The notes under the pieces are model-generated. The model saw nothing but the letters and a program-made list of their open reading frames with translations. It was not told the DNA's origin and made no database searches. A stretch of DNA of 64,000 bases from Synechococcus sp. PCC 7335 (GTDB taxonomy: Bacteria > Cyanobacteriota > Cyanobacteriia > Phormidesmidales > Phormidesmidaceae), in contig NZ_DS989905.1 in the NCBI RefSeq assembly GCF_000155595.1, forward strand, positions 571,040 to 635,039, written 5' to 3'. A program made the translations under genes and the position numbers. Shown piece after piece: positions 8,329 through 41,653 of this stretch (position 1 is its first letter; each line of letters starts with the position of its first letter).

Positions 8329-9078
8329 TCAAAAACAACTTTTGCGTTGCATAGTCATTCTAATTTCTTGCGCCTTGTCAAAGGCTTGTCGTGCAGTTGT
8401 TTCGTTCCCTGTTCTGCCTACAGAAGAGGTCGATTTACGTGCTTGTTCTGCCGCACTGTTGCTAATGGAATTAAGCTTTTGAAACTCGGATTCAAGCTGA
8501 GAACATGATAAAGCAGAAAACCCATCGTTCCTATTGGCTATTGGAATGTCAGAAGAGCCAGACTTTGAATCAGAGATTTTGGTAAATTCATACCTCTTTG
8601 TCTGGCCCGCTATTGTCATGTCCCCTATCATCTTATTCGGAGCGATAACCCTGATTCTATTGTCACTTAACACCATAGTACTACCTTCCCCGAATAAATC
8701 TATGCGGGATAGAAAGTGAAGATTTTCCCCGTCATATGCGTACTGAACGATGTTCATTTGGTTTCGATTTGAGGCATCACCTAAAATAACCCCATTCATT
8801 GCGCTGCCAAGCTCTGTTATCTGAAGGCTGCCCCCTTCTATCTGTATGTCCCACGCAAATGGAGGGTAGCCAAGATCATTAACGTCTTGAATTTCCCACT
8901 GGCCTTCTATCGGCTCACGGTTGCTCGTTGATGGTGGTGAAACAGAAGACGGCTGAGGAGAAATTTGAGAAGACGGTTGTGGGGAATCGTCTTGAATACA
9001 GGCTATGTTGCTTAATGATAGTAAGACAAGAGCTAACCCTAAACTTCCAACCCGTTTGGTCATATAAATTGTATTCAT
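8329..9078 (-). CDS. Putative lipoprotein of unknown function
   Basis: The 249-residue protein starts with a lipoprotein signal peptide: basic start MTKR, hydrophobic LGLALVLLSLS and lipobox SNIAC with the acylated cysteine at about residue 27. A serine/proline-rich linker (about 30-52) follows. The next part, about 55-165, has the look of a lipocalin-like or beta-rich domain (EGQWEIQDV at its start), and the tail is helical with two cysteines (ALSCSQLE and the final RKSCF) that could form a disulfide. It should be anchored in a membrane, facing outside the cytoplasm. I do not recognise the family. It is the last gene of the minus-strand arm and is separated from the preceding gene by about 96 bp. 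Confidence 0.65.
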   Translation of the reverse strand: MNTIYMTKRVGSLGLALVLLSLSNIACIQDDSPQPSSQISPQPSSVSPPSTSNREPIEGQWEIQDVNDLGYPPFAWDIQIEGGSLQITELGSAMNGVILGDASNRNQMNIVQYAYDGENLHFLSRIDLFGEGSTMVLSDNRIRVIAPNKMIGDMTIAGQTKRYEFTKISDSKSGSSDIPIANRNDGFSALSCSQLESEFQKLNSISNSAAEQARKSTSSVGRTGNETTARQAFDKAQEIRMTMQRKSCF

Positions 9079-9174
9079 CTTTTCTACTCTTAAGTTGCTT
9101 GGAATACTTCATCTTCTGAATCTTACCGAAGTAGTATTGAGGATCTTCTCAATTCTCTAACGGAACCTTAGAAG

Positions 9175-9786
9175 CTAGCTTTTCTTCTTGAGGAGATCTC
9201 CAATGTTGTCTCTCAAGTTACTTAGTTCTGACAGAGATTGGCTCAGCATCTGATGATTAGAGGTGATTAATGCATGTTCTACATCGGTCATTACTTTTTG
9301 AATTTTTACTTTGTGAATAAGGATGCCTGATGTAAGCTTCTCTCCTTTGTTCATTAACTCATCCTCGATAACTTTTCCAACGACCGGAATACTTCTTAGC
9401 TTTGGTCGAATAAATTGGAGAACGGATGAGAATTGGTCTGCCTGCTCAAACGCTAATACTTGTAGTTCAGAAGCCAGTTTGGACATTTCTATGGCCGATT
9501 TTTGAACGCCATCGATTAGCTCTTTGTTTTGATTTAGAGATTTTTGAGCATCAGCAAGCGAATTAAATTTATTGAAGTAAATAAAGATTCCAGGAAGTAC
9601 TACGAGGGCGAAGCCCCCGAAGAGAGCTATATAGATTAATGTGCCTATGTTTGCATAAAAAAAGGCTAGTACCATTAAACAGGCGCCTAGTAGCTGTATT
9701 GCGAAGATGGACTTTCCGGTTCTAAAGGCTTCATCTAGGCCGCCAAGAACAACTGCTGATAGGGGCTTGATATCTGAATGAGTCAT
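9175..9786 (-). CDS. Membrane protein with two N-terminal helices and a coiled-coil tail
   Basis: From the ATG at 9786 the protein has 203 residues. A longer frame starting at 9825 would add 13 residues encoded in the foot of the hairpin at 9829-9884 and is less likely. Two adjacent hydrophobic helices lie at about residues 26-70 (IFAIQLLGACLMVLAFFYA and IGTLIYIALFGGFALVVLPG). The remaining 130 residues are predicted helical and polar, with regular spacing suggesting coiled coil, and would lie in the cytoplasm. The family is unknown. It lies in the same orientation as the dynamin/GrpE arm and could serve as its membrane partner, but a 480-bp gap separates it from the GrpE-like gene. Confidence 0.6.
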   Translation of the reverse strand: MTHSDIKPLSAVVLGGLDEAFRTGKSIFAIQLLGACLMVLAFFYANIGTLIYIALFGGFALVVLPGIFIYFNKFNSLADAQKSLNQNKELIDGVQKSAIEMSKLASELQVLAFEQADQFSSVLQFIRPKLRSIPVVGKVIEDELMNKGEKLTSGILIHKVKIQKVMTDVEHALITSNHQMLSQSLSELSNLRDNIGDLLKKKS

Positions 9787-9828
9787 GAAAGATCCACGAA
9801 TGAAAGAAAAAGGGCTCTGTTGCAAAAA

Positions 9829-9884
9829 GTAGCTACATAATCAAGAGGAGAGCAGTAAAGTTCTTCTCTTGATTATGTAGCTAC
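9829..9884. repeat. Perfect 19-bp palindrome with 18-base loop
   Basis: GTAGCTACATAATCAAGAG at 9829-9847 is exactly repeated inverted at 9866-9884, and a few more pairs extend into the loop. No T-run follows. It could be a regulatory hairpin upstream of the 9786 gene or the end of a small transposon. Confidence 0.5.
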
Positions 9885-10307
9885 CCCAAAGATTATGTTG
9901 ATGAAAAGAATGTCTTATGATAGGTTCTTCAACACCTTTAATTTGCTCCTTGAAAATCATGTTTATCACCTCATATACTTTGATCTGAGTGTTCGTCTAG
10001 CGGTAGTAAATGAACTAAATTTCAAACCTAGTCTAGTTCGGCGCTTTAGGAACCACTGGTCTAACTCTAGTAGGGTGTTCAGGTACTTTATCCGCTGAGT
10101 TTCCGTTGTTCCCGGCGCCAACTGGTAATTTGCGAAGCCGAAGCCAAAAGCAAAACACAGCTAGCATCCTTTGTGTAGAATACGTATGGGTGTTTTCAGT
10201 ACATGCATCTTTAATAGACGACTGTAGATAGAAAAGGTTGTCAGATTTTTAAAATTGTGAATCCCAGCAAATGAAGACATGAAGTGGATCCAAAAGACAA
10301 CCTTTCT
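9885..10307. other. Gene-poor 423-bp interval
   Basis: The plus strand has a 67-codon frame at 9895-10098 (MLMKRMSYDRFFNTFNLLLE at its start), but there is no ribosome-binding site and no recognisable family. AT-rich sequence around 10170-10260 may be a promoter. I see no other structure. Confidence 0.4.
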
Positions 10308-10991
10308 TCAGTCAATCATTATGTAGACAGTTACTTCTTGTGGTCGAATAAGTTTACCGTCAAATAGATAGCCTGGCCTAACAGTCGAACAAATTGTCTC
10401 TTCTAGTTCTGGATCATGAGTAACTTTTGTGTCTACAACTTGCTGTTGATCGTAGTTGAATTTCCCAGTCATCTCTAGTGGCGTTATGTCTTCTAGTTCT
10501 AGAGTATGTCCAAGTCTCTTGTAAATTTCTGAAAGAGCCTCTGTTGTAAGAGATGTTGAGCTAGACTGAGCCAGCAAAACCCAGTCTCTGAGCTTGATTA
10601 GCTCCATCGCGGTGGAAGAGGGTTTTGACTCAGGGGTAACAGCAATGCTTGAAGGCGACTTTTGCTTGACCACCGCTTCAGTCATGTGAGCTAGCTTGAT
10701 ATTCTCTTGTGAAGGAGAGATAAAATTCCCTGTACTGCTAGGGGTAGAGGAATTCTCGTCATCCAACTCCGTATCGGAATTCTGACCGACCTCAAGCAAA
10801 CGTTCCATGAGTAAACAAGTAGACTTGAGTACCGCGACTACATCTGTGTCAACTGGGTTCTGGGTCGTGGAGGGTAAGTGGTTGAGCTGATGTGCAAGGG
10901 ATTCTGCCCGGAGGGCCAGTTTTGTTATCTTTAGTCTAAAACCCCGATAGGTAGATCTGGGTCTGAATTTTCGGAGCAGCGACTTAAGCAT
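10308..10991 (-). CDS. GrpE-like nucleotide exchange factor with divergent N-terminus
   Basis: The 227-residue protein ends in a block that matches the GrpE beta-wing domain: DPELEETICSTVRPGYLFDG followed by KLIRPQEVTVYI (residues about 192-225). Before it is a helical region (ELIKLRDWVLLAQ, about 130-170) in place of the GrpE dimer helices. The N-terminal 120 residues are basic and then serine-rich and low in complexity, unlike canonical GrpE. GrpE releases ADP from DnaK; three Hsp70 genes occur in the opposite arm of the cluster, so a dedicated exchange factor is a natural reading. It starts 43 bp after the second dynamin gene stops. A leader AAGGAGATCC precedes the ATG at 10991. Confidence 0.65.
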   Translation of the reverse strand: MLKSLLRKFRPRSTYRGFRLKITKLALRAESLAHQLNHLPSTTQNPVDTDVVAVLKSTCLLMERLLEVGQNSDTELDDENSSTPSSTGNFISPSQENIKLAHMTEAVVKQKSPSSIAVTPESKPSSTAMELIKLRDWVLLAQSSSTSLTTEALSEIYKRLGHTLELEDITPLEMTGKFNYDQQQVVDTKVTHDPELEETICSTVRPGYLFDGKLIRPQEVTVYIMID

Positions 10992-11034
10992 AGGATCTCC
11001 TTAGTCAAGGATAGATGGAATAGTGAGATTTAAC

Positions 11035-12603
11035 TTATGACCAAAAATTGAGATGTTTGTGAGCTTCTTGTAGGTGATAGACAATACGTTCATATGAGTG
11101 AGCCAAGACGGTAGAGGCTTCAATGGTTGACCGAGATGCCCCCATTTGAACAGCGGCCCGTAATCGCCACTTCTGCATACGTTCTTTTGCGGCAGAGAGC
11201 AGTTGATCGATGGAAGCTTGTTCCTTCATACCGAGGCGCTGGAAGCAAGCTGGTCCGTATTCACCAGTCACTTCCAGTAGTTGATGAATCTCTGAGTCGC
11301 TAAATTCCAGTTTGCGATCATAGTAGCTCCTCAAAACATCCAGCTCTCGAAAGTCATGAGAATTGGCTTCTAGGGCTTCGACTTTTCCGGCGACCGCTTC
11401 CACTACCTGTAAATCATCGCCAGACTGCTTCTGTTTTTGCTGAAAACAGAGAGCCTGTAGCCGATCAATAGCAGTGCGGAGTTTAATGAGATAGGCGCGA
11501 TGGCCAAAATGGGACGTAATTAATTCGGATAGATCTGAGACACCGCTGGCTTGCATCAATTCTTGGCTTAGTGATTCGAGATCGTAAGTTCCTGAGCGAA
11601 TTAACTGACATGCTTGCCAAATGCCGTAGCGCTCTAGGCGATGGAGTACTTTCTGACGCTCGGAGACAGTTGGCATTTCCAGTTGATCAGGAAATGCCTT
11701 ATTTTCAAACCGAGCTTTAGACCTAAGCAAGCTCTGCAAGCTTTTTTCGGGAAGTGCTGCAAGCTTTTGCAAAGTCTCAAACTCACTGTCTCTTAGTGTT
11801 TTCGCTCCTAGTGCGAGATAGCCGCTTGCAGGCTTGATGGCGTAGAGTAGACTACGGACCTGAGGAATATTGGAAAGGCGAGTGGCAATTTGTTGACTGT
11901 TTTCAGGAGAAAATTCTGGCCAGTATGTATCAATCCGAGTTAAGACCCCAATAGAGTTAATGGGGGTGGCACGTCCCACAGATGGCCCCTGAAACTCTTC
12001 CATGACAGCTTGGTCGCCAGCACTAAAATTATGGCTGAACAAATATAGAACTGCGTCGGCCTTGTCGGCTTCGGCTTGGGTTAAGGCGGTCAGCTCTTGG
12101 CCACGTAGATTCAGAAAGTCACGGGTGTTTTGCGAGTCATCTTTATAAAATGAATCTAGACCAGGGGTGTCGATGAGGTGGAACGTTTTAAGAATCGGGT
12201 TGGGGTAAAAAACTTCGATGTATTTGATGCTCAGCAAATAGTCCTGATGCTCATCTGCACGTTGCGTGAGGGTTTGCAAATCTTCAAAGGACTTATCTTC
12301 AGATTTACCGTTTTTGTAATGCACCTTGAGCGTGTGGTGGGGACCGTACTTGAGCCAGTTGATATTGAACGTGGCTTCAACAGTCCCCGTAGCGACGATC
12401 TCTTCCCCAAGTAAAGCGTTGAGCATCGTGGACTTACCAGCCTTGATTTTGCCAACGATGGCAACCCGCATGGGCTCCGAGAGCCGCTGTTGGCAATTCA
12501 GTAGCTCTTGATGCAATTCTTGCAAAGATGCGCGATCACGGGTCTTCTCTAGGATAAAGTCAAATAAAGCCTGAGCGCGATCACGTAAGGGTAGATCAGC
12601 CAT
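11035..12603 (-). CDS. Dynamin-like GTPase (second of pair)
   Basis: I place the start at ATG 12603, which overlaps the stop of the upstream gene as ATGGCTGA and has GGAG at the right distance; longer upstream frames are possible but would lie inside the previous gene. The resulting 522-residue protein has G1 GKIKAGKS at residues 51-58, G3 DTPG at 145-148 and G4 TRID at 222-225, so a complete GTPase domain. The C-terminal 200 residues are helical with coiled-coil character (EALEANSHDFRELDVL, MKEQASIDQLLSAAKERMQK). No obvious transmembrane helix is present, unlike its partner. Paired bacterial dynamins often work as heterocomplexes on membranes; here the tight overlap suggests equal production of both. 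Confidence 0.85.
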   Translation of the reverse strand: MADLPLRDRAQALFDFILEKTRDRASLQELHQELLNCQQRLSEPMRVAIVGKIKAGKSTMLNALLGEEIVATGTVEATFNINWLKYGPHHTLKVHYKNGKSEDKSFEDLQTLTQRADEHQDYLLSIKYIEVFYPNPILKTFHLIDTPGLDSFYKDDSQNTRDFLNLRGQELTALTQAEADKADAVLYLFSHNFSAGDQAVMEEFQGPSVGRATPINSIGVLTRIDTYWPEFSPENSQQIATRLSNIPQVRSLLYAIKPASGYLALGAKTLRDSEFETLQKLAALPEKSLQSLLRSKARFENKAFPDQLEMPTVSERQKVLHRLERYGIWQACQLIRSGTYDLESLSQELMQASGVSDLSELITSHFGHRAYLIKLRTAIDRLQALCFQQKQKQSGDDLQVVEAVAGKVEALEANSHDFRELDVLRSYYDRKLEFSDSEIHQLLEVTGEYGPACFQRLGMKEQASIDQLLSAAKERMQKWRLRAAVQMGASRSTIEASTVLAHSYERIVYHLQEAHKHLNFWS

Positions 12604-14647
12604 CTGCCCAATCTCCGTAATCCGCATTAGCGGTAACAGGTTGAGGCGTCGCTGGTGCACTTGATGAAGCGGCATCTGCAGATGATGCGGCTGGAGCAGA
12701 AGTGGAGACAGTAGCAGACTCAGGCTCTTCTAGTGCCTGTATGGCTAATTGCTCTGCTGCATTCTGGAAACTTGTGAGCTGCTGTAAGGGGCCCTTTAAC
12801 TCGGCAATCTTATGAGTCATTTGGTTCTGTGAAAGCTTGATGGTTTTCTGAAAAGAACTTAGGCTGCGATCACAGATCTCTTTCTCTTGTTTTATTTGCT
12901 GGTGTAAGTTACTCCGCATCGTTTTACTCAAGTTGGTGATCATATCTTCTAACGCTGCTTTACATGATGAATGATTGTCAACAATATAGGGATGAATGAT
13001 TCTTGAGATTTCTCGTTTAGTTAATATGTGATCTCGTTCTTTAACGTGACTAAGTGCATCCCTGATACCATCAGTCAAGCCTCTTGCACCGCCGAGGAAG
13101 GCCCCCAAGGCCGCACCAAGTTGCGCTCCAGGCACCGCACCCGCGCCGCCAAATACAAGCCCTGCTATTCCTCCCAGTGTTCCTCCCAAAAGTGAGCCAA
13201 TCGCTACTCCACCCATGGCCTTGAATCTACCTCGCGTAGCCGCTTCAATACTCTTTTTCCACAAGCTAGTCTCTGCTGCTTCGACTTGTGATAAACCCTC
13301 TAAACTTTGAACTTGAGCAGCTCCTTCGCCGAGATTTATCCGAGCTAACGAATCAACCGCTAAAGGATTCATATCTAAGCCTGTTGAATTAACAATTTCA
13401 ATGTGCAAAGTGCCAGCTCGTTGACTCAGTTCTTTGGTAAGTATTGACATCATAGAGTCGAAGTCATTTTCTAAAAGTCCTGCTATCTTAGGGGGGGCAT
13501 CTAGGATTTCGCTATCCTCCATATATTCCTGTGAACGGCGTTTTATCTGCTCAACCTCTCTATTAAACTTTCTAAATATTGCTGTTTTGATATCTTGAAT
13601 ACCATCGTTCAACTGGTATTGCCAAGCTGCACTGTCGGTCTGAAGCTGTTTTAATCGCTTAGATAAGTCTCTCAGATTAGACTCTAATTTTGCTTTTTCT
13701 TCCTGATTAAGGTTTTGGCAAGCTTCCCATTCAGCTTGTAGGGGTGACTTGAGATCAGCAACTAACCTTCCAAACTCTGTCAGCGCTCTAAGGATTAAAA
13801 TTTTTCCCCGCTGCTGACCCAAAAGCAGCCATAGCTCTTGTTCCAAGGCTGCGAAGTTACTGTCCTCCAAATCGTCAGGATCCTCGGTGTCTAGATAGGC
13901 TAGGCTTAAGCTGCTTGAAACCGGAACAATTGGCAACGATTCTCCTATATCGGGGAGAGTTTTGACTAGCTTCTCACGATTGCTATCAATAATCTCCTTA
14001 TAGTTACTGACGGCATCAGCTTTGGTGACAACAAAGATAAAATTCTGGCAATGTTTGCTAATCTGCTGAATAAAATTGAGTTCTTTCGTTGAGAGGGGCG
14101 CATAGACATCACTCACAAATAAAATAGAGTCAGCGCTAGGGACATAGGCATAGGTAATATCTGTGTGTTTGGCATTTAGACTACCGACTCCAGGAGTGTC
14201 CACAAGGAGCAGTCCCTCTTTTAACTGCGGATTGGGGGACTCTATTTCTAGCAAACGAGCTTGTTTGTTATTTTTTTGATTACCTTGTTCTGTCACATAA
14301 TCTGAAATATCAGCTCGGCTGATCTCCTTCCTCTTTTCTTTTCCTTGTTCTCCCAAAGCAACTGTGATTTTTTCAGAGTCGCCATAGGTAATCGTAGACA
14401 CGAGATTTGTAGCAATGTCTACATCGACAGGAAATAGACCAGGTTCACGTAAATAGGCATTTATTAGACTGGACTTGCCTTGCTTAGCTTCACCTGCTAC
14501 AACCACAAGCAGTTTACCTTCCAGTAAATGCTGTTTGATTTCATGAAGACGTTTGACAGCATCTTTATGGCCGCTAGCCTTTGCAAAGTCAATTGCAGAC
14601 TTTAGGAGCAAAAGGGTTTGTTGCTTAGTTGCTTGGAAGTTTGCCAT
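12596..14647 (-). CDS. Dynamin-like GTPase with hydrophobic membrane segment (first of pair)
   Basis: The 683-residue protein has G1 GEAKQGKS at residues 52-59, G3 DTPG at 150-153 and G4 TKAD at 208-211. A long helical stalk follows (about 290-450). Residues about 478-530 are glycine/alanine-rich and hydrophobic (GGVAIGSLLGGTLGGIAGLV, then GGAGAVPGAQLGAALGAFLG), resembling the membrane-inserting paddle of bacterial dynamin-like proteins. The tail is rich in Ala, Ser, Thr and Pro and is probably disordered. A leader AGAGGTCC sits before the ATG. Such GTPases remodel or repair membranes; in other bacteria they have been linked to phage tolerance and to membrane stress. Its place here with Hsp70s and proteases suggests a stress or defence role. 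Confidence 0.88.
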   Translation of the reverse strand: MANFQATKQQTLLLLKSAIDFAKASGHKDAVKRLHEIKQHLLEGKLLVVVAGEAKQGKSSLINAYLREPGLFPVDVDIATNLVSTITYGDSEKITVALGEQGKEKRKEISRADISDYVTEQGNQKNNKQARLLEIESPNPQLKEGLLLVDTPGVGSLNAKHTDITYAYVPSADSILFVSDVYAPLSTKELNFIQQISKHCQNFIFVVTKADAVSNYKEIIDSNREKLVKTLPDIGESLPIVPVSSSLSLAYLDTEDPDDLEDSNFAALEQELWLLLGQQRGKILILRALTEFGRLVADLKSPLQAEWEACQNLNQEEKAKLESNLRDLSKRLKQLQTDSAAWQYQLNDGIQDIKTAIFRKFNREVEQIKRRSQEYMEDSEILDAPPKIAGLLENDFDSMMSILTKELSQRAGTLHIEIVNSTGLDMNPLAVDSLARINLGEGAAQVQSLEGLSQVEAAETSLWKKSIEAATRGRFKAMGGVAIGSLLGGTLGGIAGLVFGGAGAVPGAQLGAALGAFLGGARGLTDGIRDALSHVKERDHILTKREISRIIHPYIVDNHSSCKAALEDMITNLSKTMRSNLHQQIKQEKEICDRSLSSFQKTIKLSQNQMTHKIAELKGPLQQLTSFQNAAEQLAIQALEEPESATVSTSAPAASSADAASSSAPATPQPVTANADYGDWADG

Positions 14648-14670
14648 TATTTGGACCTCTAAGACTATGG

Positions 14671-15204
14671 TTAAGATGAATGGGGTAGAAAAGTCTGGAA
14701 AAATTTAGGTGAAAGGGCACGGTAGTAGGGTTCGAGAGCAGGTTCCATCAAGAGACGCAAGGACTCGGAGAATCGTGCTTTCCACTCAAGACTGAAGGCT
14801 TCACGCTTCGCCAACGAGTTGAGAAGATGGTCATACATGGCCAGTAGCTCTTGACGCTTGCTGACGTACTCGGCCTTGGGGAGCTGGGCAATCTCTGGAT
14901 GGGGGAAAGTTCCTGCCTGGCTGTTCCAGTTTCCTTCTGGCCAGGGATGCTGGAATCGAAGATTGAGGTATTGCACAGGCAAGCCATTCGACCAGTCCAC
15001 GGTGATGAGAGCAAAGGGGGGAAACAGGGCCATGCCCTGCTTTCCGTGCGATTGGTTGGCACCCACGAAAGGAAGATGGACATAGATATTGCTTTCTCGG
15101 CGCAAAGGCATGGGCCAACCTGTTAGGGCTTCCATCGGTATGAGCTGCTGGGCCAGTGGCATAGCGCGAATCAATTTAATCAGTTTCGCAGTTTCACTTT
15201 CCAT
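14671..15204 (-). CDS. Uncharacterised 177-residue protein
   Basis: I chose ATG 15204 because it lies just after the stop of the peptidase gene (15224) and is preceded by GTAGAAGAAA. Upstream in-frame ATGs at 15246 and 15297 would overlap that gene. The protein is soluble, tryptophan- and proline-rich in the middle (HLPFVGANQSHGKQGMALFP, LITVDWSNGLPVQYLNLRFQ) and helical at the end (KRQELLAMYDHLLNSL). No signal peptide, helix-turn-helix or nucleotide-binding motif is seen. I do not recognise the family. It sits between the peptidase and the dynamin pair with 23 bp to the next start, so it is surely in the same operon. Confidence 0.7.
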   Translation of the reverse strand: MESETAKLIKLIRAMPLAQQLIPMEALTGWPMPLRRESNIYVHLPFVGANQSHGKQGMALFPPFALITVDWSNGLPVQYLNLRFQHPWPEGNWNSQAGTFPHPEIAQLPKAEYVSKRQELLAMYDHLLNSLAKREAFSLEWKARFSESLRLLMEPALEPYYRALSPKFFQTFLPHSS

Positions 15205-15223
15205 TGCATTTTCTTCTACAAAA

Positions 15224-16168
15224 TCATTCGTATGCGGAGGGGACATAGTACTCACCGCTGCTGGGCCAGTAGGGGCGTCCATAGCGATCAAGCGCACTAA
15301 AACGAACTTCGCTCATCCCAGCCAGCTCTGTCTGGTTAGTAGTATCAGGCGTGAGTTCAGTTGTGCTGACCATAAATTTCTGACTATCAGCCCAAGCATT
15401 CTCAAACTCACCCGCAGGCACCCTGAAGCCTTGGCCGTCAGCAGTACCTGGATCATTGAGGATAACCATTGGATTGTTTGGATCTGTGGCGTCAATGCCG
15501 ATCACCTGCACTGCATGGTTCGCATCCTGGCCAGGGATATGTCCATAGCCAGCAATGTAATCACCCAGCACATCGTCTTCTAGTGCGTTCTCGCCAGGGG
15601 TCCAGATTTCATCGGCATCAACGCCAACGATGACCTTTTGCCCCTGTTCAAGTTTCTCAGCAATATCCTGCAGAGAACCGCCAAATTCCTGGGTCACGGG
15701 GACACCGTAGGCTTCTAGCAAATTGCCAGTTGCATGCAGCGGAGTACCGCCTCCTGGAGTATACCAACCGTTAGCGGTGGCGACTTCGGTTAATTCTTGC
15801 TCGGTCACATCTCGCCCGAGTACCTCATCTAACACAAATTCTTGGGATGCGATCGCACAGGTATCATCACGGGTTTGCTGATGCCAGTTCTCCATATCCT
15901 CATCAGGTGTGCCGAATACTCCATCGATGGGGTTTGGATCGCAAGAACCAATTTCAAACGGAGTGGCCACAATCCCCGTATCCACAACACCATCACCATC
16001 AGTGTCAATCAAGTTGACGCTTAATATGTCGTCAAGCACGCCATCACCATTCATGTCTGATTGCACCAGGGTGGTATCTAGAATGCCATCGCCATCGGTA
16101 TCAATATCTTGGACGTAGCTTTCTTCCAAGCCATCTCCATCAAGATCTAGCCAGTCCATGCTGAACAT
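15224..16168 (-). CDS. C39-like cysteine peptidase with N-terminal DxDGDG calcium repeats
   Basis: The 314-residue protein begins with five DxDGDG-type loops within residues 8-65 (DLDGDG, DTDGDG, DMNGDG, DTDGDG), as in dockerin or EF-hand-like calcium-binding repeats. The second half reads as a papain-like C39_2 peptidase: cysteine in DDTCAIAS (C104), histidine in NHAVQVIGID (H218) and the third residue in ILNDPG (N238/D239). No signal peptide or membrane helix precedes the repeats. Calcium could therefore gate a cytoplasmic or specially exported protease. It is the first gene of the minus arm, facing the sigma-factor gene across a 254-bp gap. The substrate is unknown; a partner protein within the cluster is one possibility. 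Confidence 0.75.
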   Translation of the reverse strand: MFSMDWLDLDGDGLEESYVQDIDTDGDGILDTTLVQSDMNGDGVLDDILSVNLIDTDGDGVVDTGIVATPFEIGSCDPNPIDGVFGTPDEDMENWHQQTRDDTCAIASQEFVLDEVLGRDVTEQELTEVATANGWYTPGGGTPLHATGNLLEAYGVPVTQEFGGSLQDIAEKLEQGQKVIVGVDADEIWTPGENALEDDVLGDYIAGYGHIPGQDANHAVQVIGIDATDPNNPMVILNDPGTADGQGFRVPAGEFENAWADSQKFMVSTTELTPDTTNQTELAGMSEVRFSALDRYGRPYWPSSGEYYVPSAYE

Positions 16169-16422
16169 TCTGCTTACTCTCTGAACGGAACATTAATGAA
16201 TCTATATGACGCACTGCCCTCTCTTTATGCAGGTAGACGAAATTAATTCACACTGGCTTAATCTAAGTTTACGAAGGGCCAAACGACCAGACAATTTATG
16301 ACGATATGCTTCAGGAGGGGTGGACATGAAGCCGGAGTAGTGCATAAATTGGTTTGTTAGGTGGTTAACGTGCATCTGTAAGAGATAGTCCAGTATTCTT
16401 TGCTGCTAAGCTGCCAGATGTC
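16169..16422. promoter_or_regulatory. Divergent control region of the two-armed cluster
   Basis: This 254-bp gap separates the start of the minus arm (C39 peptidase) from the start of the plus arm (sigma factor), so it must carry promoters for both. I see no clear palindromic operator. Which sigma factor reads it is unknown; autoregulation by the adjacent sigma-like protein is an inference. Confidence 0.45.
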
Positions 16423-20666: not shown

Positions 20667-20733
20667 AAATGAAGATATATAGATTCTTCTTATGATGTTA
20701 ATGTCCAATTTTTTGTTCGCTTAGGAGTGTCTT

Positions 20734-21462: not shown

Positions 21463-21551
21463 GGCAGTTGCAGATTGTGGGAGCGGCTGTAAGGTGAAAG
21501 GATAGAGATAAACAACTGTTTAGTAGATTTAGATTAGATAGGAATACGATA

Positions 21552-22892
21552 ATGCATCTTGGGATTGATTTTGGTACCTGCTATTCCAGTGCTGCCTTGA
21601 TGTTAGATGGCACATTCCAAGCAGTAAAAGAACCATTGAAACATGGCTACTCTTTCCCTTCCAGCGCCTTTTTGACTAAGCAGGGCAATATTGTAGTCGG
21701 CCAAGCTGCAGAGAACCAGTATAAGCTTGCTCCAAACCGCTATTGTCGTGAATTTAAGCGGGATTTTGGATGCACTGTGCCCTATACGCTGGGGGGGCGA
21801 GGATTTCTACCTGAGCAATTGATTTTGGAACTGCTCTGTACCATTAAGGCGGAGGCTGAGCAGATGGTCAACGCTCCCTTATCAACAGCCGTCATCACTG
21901 TTCCAGCCACTTATCAATCCTACAAACGGGAATTGATGGAGCAAGTCGCAACTCAAGCAGGCTTTAAATCTGTCGCTTTACTAGAAGAGCCTGTTGCCGC
22001 TGCTACCTACTACGCTAGAAAACAAGGAGGGAATCAGAGACTTACTAAGGGCAATATCCTTTTGATTTATGACCTGGGTGGGGGTACTTTTGATGCATCG
22101 CTTATTCAAAAGAATAGTAAGGGGTATGATTTACTGGCCCAGCCCGTTGGAGACGAACAACTGGGTGGAGTGGACTTCGACCGCCAGATTTATCAAGATT
22201 TGAAAGCTAATTGTAGCAAGACATTACAGGCCTTACTGAATCCGCGGTGTTCCGATACTGAAGCACTCAGAGCCCAGCTGATTGTGGGTGATTGGTGCAG
22301 AAATTTTAAGCATCAGCTCAGTGTAGTGAGTGAGTATGAGGATTTACTTCCCATAGGTATGTCTGAGACTTATCAGTTGAGTCAAAACGATTTTTCTGAA
22401 ATGATCGCCCCCTTTTTACAAAGAACCTGTCAGCTGAGTAGCCAACTGGTTAAAAATGCTGGATTAGATTGGGACAAAGTAGACCAGATTTTAATGGTGG
22501 GGGGGAGTTGTCGGATTCCTGCTGTCAAAAAAGTTCTGGAAGAGTCTTTTGAACGCCCACTTGTACTTGTTGACGACCCAGAACTGGCAGTCGCCTATGG
22601 ATCTGCGATTTATGAAATTTCTCGTCCAACAAGAAAACCTGAAAGAACACTAGAAAACAATGAAGTTATTACTATTCAACCAGCTGATATTCAATTATCT
22701 AATGAACCCAATCAGAAAAACGTGATTGATGGTGCAAAAAAACAGCAAATGTCTAAAACCAGCGAAGACACGTTAGCTGGTTTAGTAGTTGTAATTATTG
22801 TAGTAGGTATATGTGTTTTTGTCTTTCAATGGCCTATATGGTTAGCAATTATTTTTGTTGTGGTAAGGCTGTTATATGCTTCCAACAAGTAG
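21552..22892 (+). CDS. Hsp70 (DnaK-like) ATPase with C-terminal membrane helices, paralogue B
   Basis: The 446-residue protein is an Hsp70 nucleotide-binding domain (residues 1 to about 365; DFGTCYSS, LIYDLGGGTFDASL, MVGGSCRIPAV), then a short polar linker and two closely spaced hydrophobic helices (about 408-443; GLVVVIIVVGICVFVF and WPIWLAIIFVVVRLLY). The DnaK substrate-binding domain is missing. The ATPase would thus be held on the cytoplasmic face of a membrane. Its first 57 residues are identical to those of paralogue C and the first roughly 100 bases of the two genes are the same, a sign of recent duplication or gene conversion. GGAATACG precedes both start codons. Confidence 0.88.
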   Translation: MHLGIDFGTCYSSAALMLDGTFQAVKEPLKHGYSFPSSAFLTKQGNIVVGQAAENQYKLAPNRYCREFKRDFGCTVPYTLGGRGFLPEQLILELLCTIKAEAEQMVNAPLSTAVITVPATYQSYKRELMEQVATQAGFKSVALLEEPVAAATYYARKQGGNQRLTKGNILLIYDLGGGTFDASLIQKNSKGYDLLAQPVGDEQLGGVDFDRQIYQDLKANCSKTLQALLNPRCSDTEALRAQLIVGDWCRNFKHQLSVVSEYEDLLPIGMSETYQLSQNDFSEMIAPFLQRTCQLSSQLVKNAGLDWDKVDQILMVGGSCRIPAVKKVLEESFERPLVLVDDPELAVAYGSAIYEISRPTRKPERTLENNEVITIQPADIQLSNEPNQKNVIDGAKKQQMSKTSEDTLAGLVVVIIVVGICVFVFQWPIWLAIIFVVVRLLYASNK

Positions 22893-22943
22893 CTAATTCT
22901 ATGCTTGTTTGTACCGTTTAGTCATTTAGAGAGGAATACGAAA

Positions 22944-24851
22944 ATGCATCTTGGGATTGATTTTGGTACCTGCTATTCCAGTGCTGCCTTGATGTTAGAT
23001 GGCACATTCCAAGCAGTAAAAGAACCATTGAAACATGGCTACTCCTTCCCCTCCAGCGCCTTTTTGACCAAGCAGGGCAATATTGTAGTCGGCCAAGCTG
23101 CTGAGAACCAGTATCGACTTGCTCCAGGCCGCTATCGCCGTGAGTTTAAGCGCGATTTAGGCCGTACTGTTCCCTATGTGCTCGGAGAACAAGATTTTTT
23201 ACCCGAGCAATTGATTCTGGAGCTGGTACGCACCATCAAAACTGAGGCCGAGCAGATGGCTAGCGATTCCTTGACGACAGCTATCATCACCATCCCAGCC
23301 ACCTACCAAACCTATAAGCGGCAATTGATGGAGCAAGTGGCTGCTCAAGCAGGCTTTGAAACGGTCACCTTACTAGAAGAGCCAGTCGCCGCCGCTACCT
23401 ACTATGCCAATAAACAGGGAGGGCTTACTGAGGGCGATATTCTTCTAGTCTACGATTTGGGGGGTGGCACTTTTGACGCTGCCCTGATTCAGAAGCAAGG
23501 CAACAGTTTTCAGGTTTTAGCTCAACCTGTGGGTGATGAACAGTGTGGTGGGATTGACTTTGATCGCCAAATCTACGCTGATCTAAACTCCCGCTGTAGT
23601 GACACGCTACAAGATCTTCTAAAGCCAACTAACCAGGATGTCGCAGCAGTTCGAACCAAGCTGATTGTAGGGGATTGGTGTCAGGGCTTTAAGCATCAGC
23701 TCAGCGCAGTACCTGAATATGAAGATCTGTTGCCCGTGGGGATGTCTGAAACCTATGCTCTAACTCGGCAACAGTTTGAAAGCATGATCGAGCCTTTTGT
23801 TACCAGGACTCTTGATCTCTGTACTCAACTGGTCCAAAGTGCGAACTTGAGCTGGGAGGAGATCAGTCGAGTCTTAATGGTGGGAGGGAGCTGTCGGATT
23901 CCCTATGTTAAAGAATCGATAGAAAAAGCCTTTGGTTGTGCTGTTGAAAGGGTAACTGATCCTGAACTTGCGGTATCTTACGGTGCTGCTGCCTATCATG
24001 ACACTTCTCAAGAAGATGTAGTTACGGGTTATCTGAATGAGGGAATAGAAGAAGCGAAAGCAAATCATTACTCTCCTGCAATTTTGAAATTCAATCATGC
24101 ATTGGAACTAAATCCAGATTATTATCCAGCCAAATATAATCGTGGATTAGCTCTATTGAAAATGGGCAAGCTAGATCAAGCTCTTGATGATTTCAATCAG
24201 GTTATAAATTTATCTCCAAGCTATGCAGAAGCCTATGCGAATCGAGGCAATGTTCTCTTCAAGTTAGCAATGCTGGAAGAAGCATTAGAAAGTTATAATC
24301 AGGCTCTAGAGATCAATTCAAAACTTTCATACGTATTAAAAAACAAAAGGAAAGTTCAAGACAGGTTAAAAGAAAAACAAAACAAAACAAAAGCACAGTA
24401 CTATGCTGTCTCTAGCGCAGAGGAGTCATCTGAGAAGAAACTGAATAGGCAAAATCTGAAGCGTCTTATGTGGCAATTTGAGAATGAAAGAGTTTACTTG
24501 TCTCCTGACATACCTGAAGAAAAATTGGATAATGCTATAAATATATACAAAAGTGAGCTAAAGAGAATATATAAGATTGGAAAAACAAGTGTGAAAGTCC
24601 TTTTGTTGTACGATGATACTTTCTGGGGTGGTGCTCGTGAGGGGTTGTTACTTCTAGAAGACTGTGCATGCTTCAGTAACTATAATGATGATCCTCCAAT
24701 ATGTCTTCGGTATAGTGAAATTCATAGAGTAGAATGTTCAGATGAAAAGATTTTCATAAACGGGGCAAGAGTAGATCTAACCATGGCAGATGATAAGAAA
24801 CTTCTTGCTCAAATGATTGCGAAGGTTTTAAGAAATACAGCATGCTGCTGA
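22944..24851 (+). CDS. Hsp70 (DnaK-like) ATPase with TPR repeats, paralogue C
   Basis: Start chosen at ATG 22944 (MHLGIDFGTCYSSAAL), after GAGAGGAATACG; the in-frame codons from 22905 are untranslated leader. Residues 1 to about 350 are the Hsp70 nucleotide-binding domain (DFGTCYSS, LVYDLGGGTFDAAL, MVGGSCRIPYV). Residues about 358-470 are three TPR units (NHALELNPDYYPAKYNRGLA, LDQALDDFNQVINLSPSYAE, EALESYNQALEINSK), for binding protein partners. The last 150 residues form an AT-rich domain I do not recognise (SPDIPEEKLDNAINIYKSEL, LLLYDDTFWGGAREGLLLLE). The substrate-binding domain of DnaK is again absent, so TPR may replace it in choosing clients. Confidence 0.87.
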   Translation: MHLGIDFGTCYSSAALMLDGTFQAVKEPLKHGYSFPSSAFLTKQGNIVVGQAAENQYRLAPGRYRREFKRDLGRTVPYVLGEQDFLPEQLILELVRTIKTEAEQMASDSLTTAIITIPATYQTYKRQLMEQVAAQAGFETVTLLEEPVAAATYYANKQGGLTEGDILLVYDLGGGTFDAALIQKQGNSFQVLAQPVGDEQCGGIDFDRQIYADLNSRCSDTLQDLLKPTNQDVAAVRTKLIVGDWCQGFKHQLSAVPEYEDLLPVGMSETYALTRQQFESMIEPFVTRTLDLCTQLVQSANLSWEEISRVLMVGGSCRIPYVKESIEKAFGCAVERVTDPELAVSYGAAAYHDTSQEDVVTGYLNEGIEEAKANHYSPAILKFNHALELNPDYYPAKYNRGLALLKMGKLDQALDDFNQVINLSPSYAEAYANRGNVLFKLAMLEEALESYNQALEINSKLSYVLKNKRKVQDRLKEKQNKTKAQYYAVSSAEESSEKKLNRQNLKRLMWQFENERVYLSPDIPEEKLDNAINIYKSELKRIYKIGKTSVKVLLLYDDTFWGGAREGLLLLEDCACFSNYNDDPPICLRYSEIHRVECSDEKIFINGARVDLTMADDKKLLAQMIAKVLRNTACC

Positions 24852-25003
24852 CCGTGAATATTGCAGATATTTTAGATAGAGAACAGCTAGATAAGGGACT
24901 GCGATGAGAGATATAGGTTTTCTTAGGTAGGAAATCTAAAGTTTCTGCTGTATCGAACCTGATACCGATAGGATTTGCATAAGTCAAAAGAGAAAGTCCA
25001 GCA

Positions 25004-28000
25004 ATGCCACCTGTCGGGGGTCAGATTACCCAACCATCTCAAAACTCAGTCTCCACCCCAGTGCTCTGGATACTTGCCATTGGGGTCAACCAGACTCAAG
25101 TCTTGAGCCTGCCAGAACTTCACTTTGCTGCTGCAGATTGCCAAGATTTCGTCAGCGCCTTAACTACCGCCACCCAGCCATTGACCCGAACGCATTGGAG
25201 CATTCACCATGACGGCTCAACGTCAACACCCAACCTAACTGTAGTTCAAGACAGTATCGCAGCAATTATTAACCAGGCTCAAGCCCAGGACTCAGTTCTG
25301 GGCTACTTCTCCGGGCACGCCCTCCTCGATCCTGATACCAAACAGCCCTTTCTCTGCCTTGCTGATACTGACAGCCAAGCGTTACGCCACACCGGATTGA
25401 GCTTGGTGGGATCACTACAGCAGCTTAGACATTGTCAAGCCCATCGCCAGCTCGTGATTCTGGATGCCTGTCGCAGCGGCAGCCTGAGCCTACAGGATGT
25501 TAACTCAGCCCCCAACCCAAAATCTGCAAGTGCAAGTCCGGCCCATCAGCTCACAGGCATCCTCAGACAACACGCTAGCCAAACCCAAGGCTTCTACGCT
25601 CTGCTCTCCTGCGATCAGAACCAATATTCCTGGGAGCGCTCCGATTTGGGGCATGGCATCTTTACCCACTATCTAATCCAGGGCTTGGAAGGAGAAGCCG
25701 CCGACACCCAGGGCAATATCACCGTCAGTCAGCTCTATCGCTACGTCTACTACCAAACCCTGAAACATATCGACAAAACCAATCAACAGATTGAGTTGCT
25801 CAATCAGCAAAAACGAGGTCGCGGCGAAGTCGAACTCCTGCCCACCTATCCTGCCCAAACGCCCAAATGGATTGTAGAAGACATCGGTGAGTGGGTCATT
25901 GGCCATATCCCCAGACAAGCCGCTAAAACCCAGCCTCGTTTGGCCCTGGTGGTAGATGGACTTAGCCCTAATCACACCTCCCTTGCTATCAGCCGCATCC
26001 TCCAAAGCACAGGTCAGTTTGAACTCGAATACTGGCCCCAGCCCCGGCAAACCTGGTCTCACGTTCAGACTGCCATCGACAAATGGTTTAAGGCGCAGTT
26101 AGCTACAGCCAGCCAGCACCCCCCTAATAACCACAACTCACCCACTCGCCTGCTCTATCTGCGGGGCACTCTCCAAACCACCACCGATGGTGAGGACTGG
26201 CTAGTCCTGGGTAATATTCGATACAGCCGGTCTTGGCTGCGCCAAAAGCTCCGCCAGCTTAGTTCCTTCCAGCAAATCTTGATTTTAGATTGCCCTGGCT
26301 CCGATACGCTCACAGACTGGATCGAAGACCTCCACCTTGGCCCAGAGCAAAGTCAATGCATCATTACGGCGACAACGCCAAGAGAACAAACCGAGCAATT
26401 TTCTCAGGCGCTTTTATCCACGCTAGAAGCTGTCGCACCAGCTCAAGGGTTGCCAGTAGCAGGGTGGATTACCCACTTGCAACAGGCTCTAGCAGACACA
26501 GACATCCAGCTCCATACCTGGCTGTCGGGCGCTCAAGGCATCATCGAAGTGATCCCAGAACAGCGCGAAACCTCAAATACCGATGCAGATTTAAAAATTT
26601 GCCCCTACATGGGCCTTAGCGCTTTCACTGAACAGGATGCAGATTATTTCTTTGGTCGCGAACAGCTCACGCAGACCTTGATTAACGCTCTTCGATATCA
26701 ACCTTTCCTGGCACTGGTAGGGGCCTCCGGCAGCGGTAAATCCTCGCTGGTGCAGGCAGGGATGATGGCCCAACTCCGACGAGGCAACCAAATTCCTGGC
26801 AGTGAGCAGTGGTGGCTAGGCTGTTTCCGCCCTGGTTCCCAGCCCCTTGTAGCCTTGCATGAATGTTTGATCCATTCACCAACCCAGGACATACCTGAGC
26901 AGGCACTATCTCTAGATGAACTTCTGCAAGCGGGAGCGCTTGGCTTTGTGCAATGGCTGCGAAGCCGCTTGGAACCGATGGTGGTGCTGATTATTGATCA
27001 GTTTGAAGAGCTATTCACCTTAACTCCTGAAACAGCGCGGCAGTCGTTCTTTAATCTGCTATTGGGTGCTCTTGAGCAGGCAGGCGATCGCTTTAAGCTA
27101 GTCATCACTCTCCGTGCCGACTTTATTGCTGCTGGCCTAGAAGTGCCAGCCCTTGCTGCTCAGCTACGCCAATCTACGGTTCTTGTTCCTCCTCAGCTTG
27201 CCATAGCTGAGGAGGAACGAGCCATTATTCAACCTGCTCAAAAAGTAGGGTTAACCGTTGAGCCAGAGCTAGTTGAAATTCTTTTGCAGGAACTGCAGGA
27301 CGCTGCTGGAGGATTACCCCTCTTAGAGTTTGTTCTGGAACAACTATGGGACCACCGACAAGGGGGAAAGCTGAAACTGCAGGCCTATCAGCGGCAAATT
27401 GGCGGCATTAGAGGTGCTTTAGAGCGCAAAGCTCAGGCTGTTTATGACAATTTCACCCCGGAGGAAAAAGACTGTGCGCGCTGGATCTTCACCTCCCTAG
27501 CTCAGCTAGGCGAAGGTACTGAAGACACTCGACGTAGAACTCGCAAGGCGGATCTCATGGTCCCCAGATATTCAACATTGGTCGTTGAACGTACCCTCCA
27601 AGCTCTTACTACTGCCAAGCTGATTATCGTTAATGCCACCAGAGAGCTGAACCTTGATCAGCCCGACTCTTCTTCCCTGTATGGGAAGTCCGAGGTTACA
27701 ACCGTCGAAATCGCCCATGAGGTACTAATTCGATACTGGCCCACACTTCAGCAGTGGCTAGAAGCTAATCGTACCCGTCTACGCCTGCAGCGGCAGATTG
27801 AGCAGCTTGCAGCTAAATGGCGACTTCAGGGAGAACCAGCTGATGATTTACTTAGAGGGATTCGGCTAGAAGAAGCTGAGGAGATTTGCAGCGGTGGTGA
27901 GATATCCAAGGTCTGTCAAGATTTTATTCAAGCCAGCGCGATCGCCCGCGAGATTCAACGCCAACAAGAACATCAAGCGAAGGAAGATGGTGTCAAAGCC

Positions 28001-29986
28001 TTAAATCTCATTGCTGAAGCTCACCTCAACGCCGACCGTCAACTAGAGGCTTTGATCAGCAGCACTAAAGCAGGTCACAAACTACAACAACTTCCGACGG
28101 TATCTCAACACCTGAGAACTGAGACTATTCAAGTACTTCACCACGTTTGTACCAACGTGCAGGAACTAAATCGTCTATACGGCCACGAAGATGTTGTTAC
28201 TTGCGTGAGCATCAGTCCAAACGGTGAGCTGATTGTTTCCGGCGACTTAACCGGGACAATCAAACTGTGGCAAACAACCGGAACCCTGCTGAATACGATC
28301 GCTGGCCATTCAGAGGCAGTCGTTAATGTCGCCTTCAGTGCTGATGGTCAGCAATTTGTTTCGGCTAGTAAAAATACAACGCTGAAAATTTGGGGAATAG
28401 AGGGGGAGCTTACTCACCTACTTACTTGCCCAGATGCAGTGAATAGCCTCAGTCTAAATACTGATCGACAGATAATTGCTGCCTCAGACAGTTCAGGCCA
28501 TCTCAGCCTCTGGCGATGGGATGGCTCACAAATCAATCTTTTCCAGGCCCACGAGGACACAGCCCACCGTGTTGCCATCAGCCCTGATACCCAGTACTTA
28601 GCCTCAGCCAGTGCCGATGGTTCCATTAAGCTTTGGCAACTTGATGGAACCTTGGACAACAACTGGTCGGGGCATGATGGTCTCATTACCAGTCTCTGCT
28701 TCAGCCCAGATGGTCAAACGCTGGCTTCCGCAGGCGCCGATCAAACCATTAAGCATTGGCACCTTGATGGAACTTTAATCACTGCACTCAACGGCCACAG
28801 CAACAGCATAACAGCAGCAATTTTCCACACAGAGAGACCGGTGATCGTTTCCAGCAGCTTCGATAGCACTATCAAAATCTGGGGCATGGACGGGACACTA
28901 CACTCAACAATTGCTGGTCATCGTGAAACAGTTTCTGAGATCACACTTAGTGCAGACAATACATTGCTGGCATCAGCCGGTGCAGACCGAGTTATCAAAC
29001 TTTGGTACTGGCAAAACCCCCTACACACAGTTCTTAAGGGCCATCAGGGTTACATCAATAGCTTACGTTTTGATGCTGCAGGAGAAACGCTAGTCTCAGC
29101 CGGTCAGGATGGTTCCATCAGGCTATGGAACCCTGATGGAAGGCAAATTCATGAATATCCAGCCCACGAAGACCTAATCACAGCCGTTAACTTTAGCCCT
29201 GATCGGCAGCTCATCGCCTCAACGAGCTTTGACAAAACTGTTAAGCTTTGGCACACCAACGGCTCGTTATCCCAGATTATTAGGGGGCACAGCGGGAGGG
29301 TCTACGGCTCAGCCTTCAGCCCAAGTGATGACATGATTGTTTCGGCCAGTGCCGATGGAACGGCAAAGCTGTGGTCTACAGAAGGCAGCTTACTGGTAAC
29401 ACTCCCTCACCCCGGCAATGAAGTAGTGTGCGTTACCTTCGCGCAAGAGGGTAAAACCATTGTTTCCGGCACATCTAATGGCTCCCTATATTTTTGGCAG
29501 CCAGATGGAACTTTAGTTCGAGTCGTCAAAGCTCATGGCAATATGATTCTTGCTTTCAGCTTGAGTCCTGATGGGAGCAAGCTAGCAACAGCAAGCCAGG
29601 ACCGAACAATTAAGGTTTGGGACATTGATGGCGAACCACTCAACGCCCTGCCGGAGCAAAGTGGCCCTGCCTATAATGTCAGTTTTAGTCCAGATGGTTC
29701 TAGCCTCGCCTTTGCAAGTTCATCAAATGTTATCCAAACTTGGTCTCTAGAGGGCATCTTGACTCAGTCATTGATATGCAGTCAGAATCCGTGTGTGTCA
29801 GTTTGTTTTCATCCTCAATGCAACCTCCTCGCCGTAGGAGACACCGACGGATTGATACACCTGATGTCTTGGCCGCTCAATCTCAACGATTTGGTTACTC
29901 ACGGTGATAACTGGCTGCAAGACTACTACAGTGCCAATGAAGTTGGCGAACAGCCTTACAGTCAGTCATCACAAAGGGTGTTGTAA
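25004..29986 (+). CDS. Caspase-like protease fused to a STAND ATPase and 14 WD40 repeats
   Basis: This 1660-residue protein has three parts. Residues about 20-290 are a caspase-like (C14, metacaspase/EAD-type) protease with histidine in YFSGHALLD (H105) and cysteine in ILDACRSGS (C156), both in the right place. A linker domain of unknown kind follows (about 300-530). Residues about 545-950 are a STAND ATPase with the entry motif YMGLSAFTEQDADYFFGRE, Walker A GASGSGKSS near 573-581 and Walker B LIIDQFEELF. From about 1050 there are 14 WD40 repeats (GTIKLWQ, STIKIWG, KTVKLWH, GLIHLMS and others), enough for two seven-bladed propellers. STAND proteins of this build oligomerise after sensing a trigger and activate the effector, here a suicide protease. 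It closes the plus arm, 152 bp after paralogue C. Confidence 0.92.
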   Translation: MPPVGGQITQPSQNSVSTPVLWILAIGVNQTQVLSLPELHFAAADCQDFVSALTTATQPLTRTHWSIHHDGSTSTPNLTVVQDSIAAIINQAQAQDSVLGYFSGHALLDPDTKQPFLCLADTDSQALRHTGLSLVGSLQQLRHCQAHRQLVILDACRSGSLSLQDVNSAPNPKSASASPAHQLTGILRQHASQTQGFYALLSCDQNQYSWERSDLGHGIFTHYLIQGLEGEAADTQGNITVSQLYRYVYYQTLKHIDKTNQQIELLNQQKRGRGEVELLPTYPAQTPKWIVEDIGEWVIGHIPRQAAKTQPRLALVVDGLSPNHTSLAISRILQSTGQFELEYWPQPRQTWSHVQTAIDKWFKAQLATASQHPPNNHNSPTRLLYLRGTLQTTTDGEDWLVLGNIRYSRSWLRQKLRQLSSFQQILILDCPGSDTLTDWIEDLHLGPEQSQCIITATTPREQTEQFSQALLSTLEAVAPAQGLPVAGWITHLQQALADTDIQLHTWLSGAQGIIEVIPEQRETSNTDADLKICPYMGLSAFTEQDADYFFGREQLTQTLINALRYQPFLALVGASGSGKSSLVQAGMMAQLRRGNQIPGSEQWWLGCFRPGSQPLVALHECLIHSPTQDIPEQALSLDELLQAGALGFVQWLRSRLEPMVVLIIDQFEELFTLTPETARQSFFNLLLGALEQAGDRFKLVITLRADFIAAGLEVPALAAQLRQSTVLVPPQLAIAEEERAIIQPAQKVGLTVEPELVEILLQELQDAAGGLPLLEFVLEQLWDHRQGGKLKLQAYQRQIGGIRGALERKAQAVYDNFTPEEKDCARWIFTSLAQLGEGTEDTRRRTRKADLMVPRYSTLVVERTLQALTTAKLIIVNATRELNLDQPDSSSLYGKSEVTTVEIAHEVLIRYWPTLQQWLEANRTRLRLQRQIEQLAAKWRLQGEPADDLLRGIRLEEAEEICSGGEISKVCQDFIQASAIAREIQRQQEHQAKEDGVKALNLIAEAHLNADRQLEALISSTKAGHKLQQLPTVSQHLRTETIQVLHHVCTNVQELNRLYGHEDVVTCVSISPNGELIVSGDLTGTIKLWQTTGTLLNTIAGHSEAVVNVAFSADGQQFVSASKNTTLKIWGIEGELTHLLTCPDAVNSLSLNTDRQIIAASDSSGHLSLWRWDGSQINLFQAHEDTAHRVAISPDTQYLASASADGSIKLWQLDGTLDNNWSGHDGLITSLCFSPDGQTLASAGADQTIKHWHLDGTLITALNGHSNSITAAIFHTERPVIVSSSFDSTIKIWGMDGTLHSTIAGHRETVSEITLSADNTLLASAGADRVIKLWYWQNPLHTVLKGHQGYINSLRFDAAGETLVSAGQDGSIRLWNPDGRQIHEYPAHEDLITAVNFSPDRQLIASTSFDKTVKLWHTNGSLSQIIRGHSGRVYGSAFSPSDDMIVSASADGTAKLWSTEGSLLVTLPHPGNEVVCVTFAQEGKTIVSGTSNGSLYFWQPDGTLVRVVKAHGNMILAFSLSPDGSKLATASQDRTIKVWDIDGEPLNALPEQSGPAYNVSFSPDGSSLAFASSSNVIQTWSLEGILTQSLICSQNPCVSVCFHPQCNLLAVGDTDGLIHLMSWPLNLNDLVTHGDNWLQDYYSANEVGEQPYSQSSQRVL

Positions 29987-41651: not shown

Positions 41652-41653
41652 TC

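Follow-up and report, generated by a model that had tools for sequence, protein, structure and literature searches.

Do the two divergent arms of a gene cluster in the cyanobacterium Synechococcus sp. PCC 7335 form a single system, and what would such a system do? The cluster occupies positions 8329–29986 of a 64,000-nucleotide stretch of DNA (the window) on a 775-kb contig of the 6-Mb genome. It comprises 14 open reading frames (ORFs), seven on the minus strand (8329–16168) and seven on the plus strand (16423–29986), which diverge from an intergenic region of exactly 254 bp (16169–16422), as laid out in a preliminary description that had interpreted them as one undescribed machine. We found that Hsp70 genes of the kind present in the plus arm recur beside the dynamin-like genes of the minus arm in four bacterial phyla, and this recurrent adjacency links the two arms at least through Hsp70. 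It is possible, and we propose it tentatively, that the cluster represents a hitherto undescribed immune or membrane-guard system that spans phyla. In such a system, IniA-type dynamins would be controlled by Hsp70 nucleotide-binding domains (NBDs) whose sensor tails are interchangeable, and a C39 peptidase would act as the trigger.

Hsp70, dynamin and peptidase genes of the two arms

Families were assigned with Pfam, NCBIfam and PADLOC, and all those originally named were recovered: Peptidase_C39_2 (1e-7), two Dynamin_N domains, GrpE, DUF1822, sigma-70, three Hsp70s, nSTAND1, WD40 and a caspase-like domain. The three Hsp70s, Hsp70a (18864–20666), Hsp70b (21552–22892) and Hsp70c (22944–24851), all on the plus strand, matched the Hsp70 NBD in Pfam at 1e-49 to 1e-52, and their phosphate loops are intact (GIDFGT, DLGGGTFD). 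The profile match ends at position ≈371 of 599 in all three (PF00012, positions 2–370 of 599 for Hsp70a), showing that they lack the substrate-binding domain (SBD), as had been proposed, and they end in different C-termini: a variable one in Hsp70a, a transmembrane (TM) segment in Hsp70b (residues ≈407–440), and, in Hsp70c, tetratricopeptide repeats (TPRs) plus a C-terminal domain that weakly resembles the Bunzi defence protein BnzA. True DnaKs are encoded elsewhere in the same genome.

Hsp70a and its ortholog from an Acaryochloris metagenome-assembled genome (MAG) are 87% identical in the NBD and 50% in the C-terminus. Across orthologs, the C-termini are 46–76% identical compared to 79–90% for the NBDs, and between paralogs the corresponding values are 11–25% and 61–72%. 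The tails in the family include TM segments, TPRs and β-helices, with membrane anchors in Hsp70b and in the Rhodococcus Hsp70s. By analogy, this constant-head, variable-tail pattern would resemble the sensors or effectors of conflict systems. The starts of Hsp70b and Hsp70c (21552–21731 and 22944–23123) are identical at 173 of 180 bases (96%), after which identity falls to ≈75%; the pattern is as after conversion, and may reflect recent gene conversion or duplication. Between Hsp70a and Hsp70b lies CC242 (20734–21462, plus strand), an acidic, Gln/Glu-rich and probably coiled-coil protein of no known family, which is confined to the window/Acaryochloris lineage.

Two dynamin-like genes are found on the minus strand, DynA (12596–14647) and its partner DynB (11035–12603), with Dynamin_N matches of 1e-20 and 3e-24 (1.5e-20 for DynB). 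Residues 12–628 of the DynA profile aligned to residues 5–598 of mycobacterial IniA (6j72; E = 1.2e-61), and IniA was also the top Foldseek match (1.7e-21, TM-score 0.50) to an AF2 model of moderate quality (pLDDT 64), so that DynA, and DynA alone, has both the full-length homology and the fold match of an IniA-type dynamin. It carries a Gly-zipper membrane segment (residues ≈480–525) that forms a hydrophobic paddle; DynB has no hydrophobic segment, and its best match in the PDB is the smaller subunit of the C. jejuni dynamin-like protein (DLP) pair, which tethers membranes (PMC6104087). After a low-complexity linker, DynA ends in a conserved tail, GDWADG (12596–12620), and its orthologs across phyla terminate in [D/G/S]WA[D/E]. 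In the Anabaena operon (L026), four proteins have a WF terminus, and these ends and the DynA tail are possible docking peptides. At most loci, the tail overlaps the ribosome-binding site and start of DynB, so that nucleotide constraint could contribute to its conservation; the gammaproteobacterial loci retain the tail without that start.

The GrpE-like nucleotide exchange factor (10308–10991, minus strand) matched PF01025 above cut-off over positions 89–163 (1.1e-7). The β-domain, which is the part that binds the NBD, is conserved, and the N-terminus is divergent. The protein also aligned with the GrpE of PDB entry 4ani (6e-5), which we take to be a GrpE–DnaK complex. The GrpE-like proteins of Rhodococcus and Phormidium are membrane-anchored.

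The C39-like cysteine peptidase (15224–16168, minus strand; 314 residues; PF13529, 9.7e-8) retains the Cys-His-Asp catalytic residues of its family (C104, H218 and ND238–239 in an alignment of 14 relatives). Its N-terminal DxDGDG calcium repeats are present in the window, Acaryochloris and Anabaena proteins only, and are missing from the Phormidium and gammaproteobacterial orthologs. Calcium sensing as a core feature, which had been suggested from these repeats, was therefore rejected. The adjacent U208 (14671–15204, minus strand) is a protein of ≈180 residues seen only in this type of cluster, with orthologs at seven loci that are 40–88% identical. It matched no family in Pfam or NCBIfam and nothing in a profile search of the PDB, and its AF2 model was poor (pLDDT 54). 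No relatives of U208 or DynB were found on viral contigs, and phage records yielded a single partial dynamin match and nothing else, indicating that the unit is apparently not phage-encoded.

Strict packing and gene overlaps had been cited in support of co-function. The 8-bp overlap of DynA and DynB (ATGGCTGA), in which DynB starts within the last codons of DynA, is genuine; however, several other overlaps probably stem from over-long start calls, and a 482-bp gap interrupts the minus arm. The likely starts are 15204 for U208 (annotated at 15297, with orthologs beginning at M32), 18864 for Hsp70a and 22944 for Hsp70c. The nearest relative, the Acaryochloris MAG (L029, L077), has an identical divergent layout, and DNA homology to it spans window positions 10322 to at least 25198, where the Acaryochloris contig ends. 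Position 10322 falls at the 3′ end of the GrpE-like gene, beyond which Acaryochloris differs. Because the homology ends there, the 482-bp gap and the two minus-strand genes that it separates from the GrpE-like gene, TM216 (9175–9825) and the lipoprotein lipo249 (8329–9078), were placed outside the unit, and both genes, previously counted as members, were rejected as parts of the system. A promoter scan of the 254-bp divergent region gave nothing beyond shuffled controls.

Conservation of the neighbourhood across phyla

Contigs in GTDB were searched with DynB as bait, and the neighbourhoods of the matches were mapped; the loci are few, and related records are not independent. A core of C39, U208, DynA, DynB and usually the GrpE-like gene, together with an SBD-less Hsp70, was found in other cyanobacteria, in gammaproteobacterial endosymbionts of tubeworms and in a MAG from the Chloroflexota, often as one operon. 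In Phormidium LEGE 05292, the order on one strand is C39, a 510-residue protein, two further GTPases, Hsp70-TPR, C39, U208, DynA, DynB and GrpE-like. On plasmid pANA01 of Anabaena sp. 90 and in Dolichospermum, it is Hsp70, an unknown gene, two DO-GTPases (PF19975 and PF19993, about 3e-15 in Anabaena), another unknown gene, C39, U208, DynA and DynB. The tubeworm endosymbionts have an Hsp70 fused to a right-handed β-helix, a catalytically dead C39 paralog, the active C39, U208, DynA and DynB, while a Sphaerobacteraceae MAG (Chloroflexota) has U208, DynA, DynB, GrpE-like and Hsp70 up to the contig end, and a 6.5-kb contig of Chamaesiphon has DynA, DynB and GrpE-like.

The link between Hsp70 and dynamins is an older one that reaches beyond the cyanobacteria, to Rhodococcus plasmids that carry DynA, GrpE-like, DynB and two Hsp70s in that order; genes for C39 and a sigma factor precede these by a few kb. 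The GrpE-like protein there (160 residues, TM-anchored, annotated as hypothetical) matched Pfam GrpE at 1e-4, just below cut-off, and the profile of the present GrpE-like family at 1e-7. In R. opacus, the order is DynA, DynB, Hsp70, one gene and C39. As a separate observation, plasmids of Rhodococcus and Gordonia have a lipoprotein-like DUF7373 gene that diverges from the dynamin pair (L083 14215–15474, L080 5353–6621, L028 5349–6656).

At all adequately flanked loci but one, the dynamins have an Hsp70 gene as neighbour, which in most cases belongs to their operon. The sole exception is the Escarpia endosymbiont MAG, which has no Hsp70 gene, but in which the first 15 Hsp70 codons continue in frame into the dead C39 paralog (L033 5442–6251, compared to L034 2002–6248); this reads as a deletion. 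Furthermore, DynA, DynB, Hsp70 and GrpE have correlated pairwise distances across the loci (r = 0.77–0.94 with the closest pair excluded). The single-system proposal had been staked on the arms not being found apart in most genomes, and Hsp70 indeed neighbours the dynamin, GrpE-like and C39 genes in cyanobacteria, Gammaproteobacteria, Chloroflexota and Rhodococcus plasmids. We also considered chance juxtaposition of a dynamin/C39/GrpE operon with an unrelated sigma–DUF1822–Hsp70–caspase operon, since the arms in the window are divergent and could be regulated independently, and since the sigma/DUF1822/caspase part is found alone elsewhere (PMC8195603). However, with Hsp70 adjacent to the dynamins or in their operon in every other adequately flanked lineage, and a 15-residue remnant in Escarpia, this explanation is refuted for Hsp70 and improbable overall, although the sigma, DUF1822 and caspase genes may still be chance neighbours.

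All 27 plasmid records with a C39 relative had dynamins within ≈12 kb (23 by coordinates, 4 by annotation). That many carriers are plasmids, including pANA01 and the large Rhodococcus plasmids, raises the alternative that the module aids plasmid transfer or alters the recipient envelope during transfer. We regard this as a slim prospect, because the genes also occur on larger chromosomal-type contigs, in Phormidium, Actinomycetospora and the endosymbionts, a number of the carrier plasmids are typed as non-mobilizable, and the units have no transfer genes. Distribution is sparse: U208 was found in 1 of 386 sampled cyanobacterial genomes, and the C39 profile in 8 of 339. In four of the seven other C39-positive genomes (L047–L050), C39 lies among three dynamin-like GTPases, usually in the order dynamin-like, C39, ≈800-residue dynamin-like and ≈670-residue dynamin-like, with neither Hsp70 nor U208, and these loci were treated as a separate, second architecture. 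The sparse distribution across phyla implies horizontal transfer.

Relation to described systems

The nearest described logic is that of the conflict systems built on GTPases, HSP70 and GrpE (Kaur et al. 2020, PMC7159879). The DO-GTPase/GAP1-N2 systems share with the window cluster paired GTPases, HSP70 and GrpE with an SBD-less HSP70, membrane components and variable parts. They differ in that the window has dynamins in place of DO-GTPases; the Anabaena operon has both kinds of GTPase. No DO-GTPase gene was among the Pfam matches of the window cluster, unlike its Anabaena relative, and no GAP1 family was among those of the window or the Anabaena operon. The description of the DO-GTPase/GAP1-N2 systems, which reports them to be almost lacking in cyanobacteria, does not mention dynamins (PMC7159879).

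In mycobacteria, the IniBAC proteins IniA and IniC likewise include paired dynamins, and DynA matches IniA over its full length as well as in structure. IniA mediates membrane fission (PMC6715688). Compared to IniBAC, the window cluster adds SBD-less Hsp70s, a GrpE-like protein, C39 and U208; no neighbour in the cluster was named IniB by Pfam or NCBIfam, a dedicated IniB profile search not having been made. The anti-phage dynamins of Eleos (LeoA/LeoBC) also form a pair, and DynA matched LeoA in PADLOC (5e-25), but IniA is far nearer (1e-61, versus 5e-4 for the LeoA structure), so Eleos is not the closest relative. We know of no Hsp70 or C39 partners for Eleos. With the DnaK/GrpE/DnaJ chaperone the cluster shares the actin-like NBD and the GrpE β-domain, but its Hsp70s have no SBD, and it includes no J-protein.

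The plus arm also contains a sigma-70-like factor (16423–17652; 409 residues; sigma70-ECF 3.7e-23, Pfam region 4), a DUF1822 protein (17642–18808, start estimated; PF08852, 4.3e-84) and a 1660-residue protein with caspase-like, nSTAND1 (5e-118) and WD40 domains (25004–29986), in which the caspase-like domain retains its His and Cys motifs (FSGHA, DACRSG). Systems with a sigma factor, DUF1822 and a caspase were described earlier (Kaur et al. 2021, PMC8195603). The plus arm has the same sigma factor, DUF1822 and caspase gene with variable C-terminus as the ECF sigma/DUF1822/EACC2-caspase systems; compared on these genes, it differs by the three Hsp70s and CC242 inserted between them. The set adjoins the dynamin core only in the window and in Acaryochloris, which belong to the same lineage, with a loose parallel in the DUF1822-CHAT gene upstream of the Anabaena operon. 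The genes resemble an accessory module of a type that had been predicted before, and an obligatory role for them in the system was not supported. Since the genome contains three strong nSTAND1 domains and weaker matches, the presence of nSTAND1 beside the cluster is suggestive only.

The single-system idea consequently stood for the Hsp70s with the dynamins, GrpE-like protein and C39, but not for TM216, the lipoprotein or the sigma/DUF1822/caspase-STAND genes as obligatory parts. Its designation as undescribed also held in part: in the open-access literature searched, we found no description of an Hsp70/dynamin-pair (Hsp70/IniA) linkage or of the dynamin/Hsp70/GrpE/C39/U208 set. However, not all of the parts are undescribed, the IniA-like dynamin and the HSP70/GrpE/GTPase-pair logic being already known (PMC7159879).

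Proposed function and genomic setting

The unit may quite plausibly, although this falls short of likely, be a mobile, membrane-associated dynamin pair that an Hsp70/GrpE ATP switch controls and proteolysis licenses, and that guards the envelope against phage or damage. We infer the order of events, the substrate of C39, the trigger, and protection from phage or damage as the purpose. DynA, inserting into the membrane, and DynB would be the working pair. The SBD-less Hsp70s would act as ATP-driven conformational switches and not as general chaperones. Their variable C-termini (TM, TPR, β-helix) would supply an input or a target, and the GrpE-like protein, as their dedicated exchange factor, would reset the NBDs. 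A precedent is a bacterial NLR whose partner in sensing phage is an Hsp70 co-chaperone (PMC12169576). C39, with U208 as a likely adaptor, would cleave one member of the complex, thereby licensing or terminating assembly. Upon breach or remodelling of the envelope by phage or other stress, the switch would free the dynamins to act on the membrane by tethering, sealing or pinching it. In the window lineage, the sigma/DUF1822/caspase-STAND-WD40 module would probably couple the unit to transcription and a suicide option.

An alternative without an immune role is envelope stress or membrane maintenance, with iniBAC-like induction by wall or membrane stress, membrane repair or vesiculation, and Hsp70 and GrpE controlling dynamin disassembly. 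Hsc70 disassembles clathrin, which provides an analogy for such control. DynA is a homolog of IniA, and iniBAC is an envelope-stress operon (PMC5760070); moreover, Hsp70 and GrpE-like proteins are membrane-anchored, and the tubeworm endosymbionts that carry the unit may experience little phage pressure. The patchy spread across phyla, plasmid carriage and diversified Hsp70 tails, however, better fit conflict, as do the conflict-type neighbours in the window and in Anabaena, and we consider this alternative unlikely, although less so than chance or plasmid transfer. Class 1 DISARM and IetAS lie 5–26 kb downstream of the cluster (35450–55745). A role in conflict is favoured by these neighbours, by carriage on plasmids, by the link to DO-GTPases and by the caspase-STAND partner, and a role in envelope stress by the kinship with IniA; neither role excludes the other. 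We favour protection from phage or acute envelope damage over housekeeping.

Several points weigh against a membrane guard controlled by Hsp70. The distances of U208 and C39 correlate less, with a poor mutual fit across distant loci. In 199 actinobacterial genomes, 7 of 32 IniA-like sites had a non-DnaK Hsp70 within 5 kb, so that Hsp70-coupled pairs are a subset of the IniA family; since most IniA-like dynamins in Actinobacteria have no linked Hsp70, it is not generally needed for dynamin function. C39 was not found beside chromosomal actinobacterial dynamin pairs, nor the GrpE-like gene in the Anabaena or gammaproteobacterial loci. Lastly, DISARM was found near the cluster in a single case, and an integrase lies between the two.

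The structures of bacterial dynamin pairs are known, but little is understood of how the pairs are regulated and what they are for, and the gene set offers a concrete, testable regulator. If an Hsp70/GrpE-gated guard system of this kind exists, it would suggest why there are IniA/IniC-type dynamins, tie a dynamin family of the tuberculosis drug response to the logic of conflict systems, and parallel, in prokaryotes, the control of membrane-coat machines by Hsc70. It would also be a candidate defence family that the PADLOC models searched do not include.

Downstream of the cluster, a UvrD-like helicase (35450–37561) precedes the DISARM genes DrmD (37569–40922), DrmMI (41507–45643), DrmA (49404–52868) and DrmB (54138–55745), between which are lodged the IetAS pair (45652–49145, minus strand) and a transposase (52885–53763). 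A PIN-domain protein (32123–32542) and a tyrosine recombinase (33038–34096) lie within 30884–34096, between the cluster and DISARM, and this stretch is a possible mobile-island boundary. About 9–11 kb upstream of the window, two genes (L078 4739–5224 and 5348–7357) resemble baseplate or spike components of contractile injection systems, as judged by eye from their N-terminal sequence alone.

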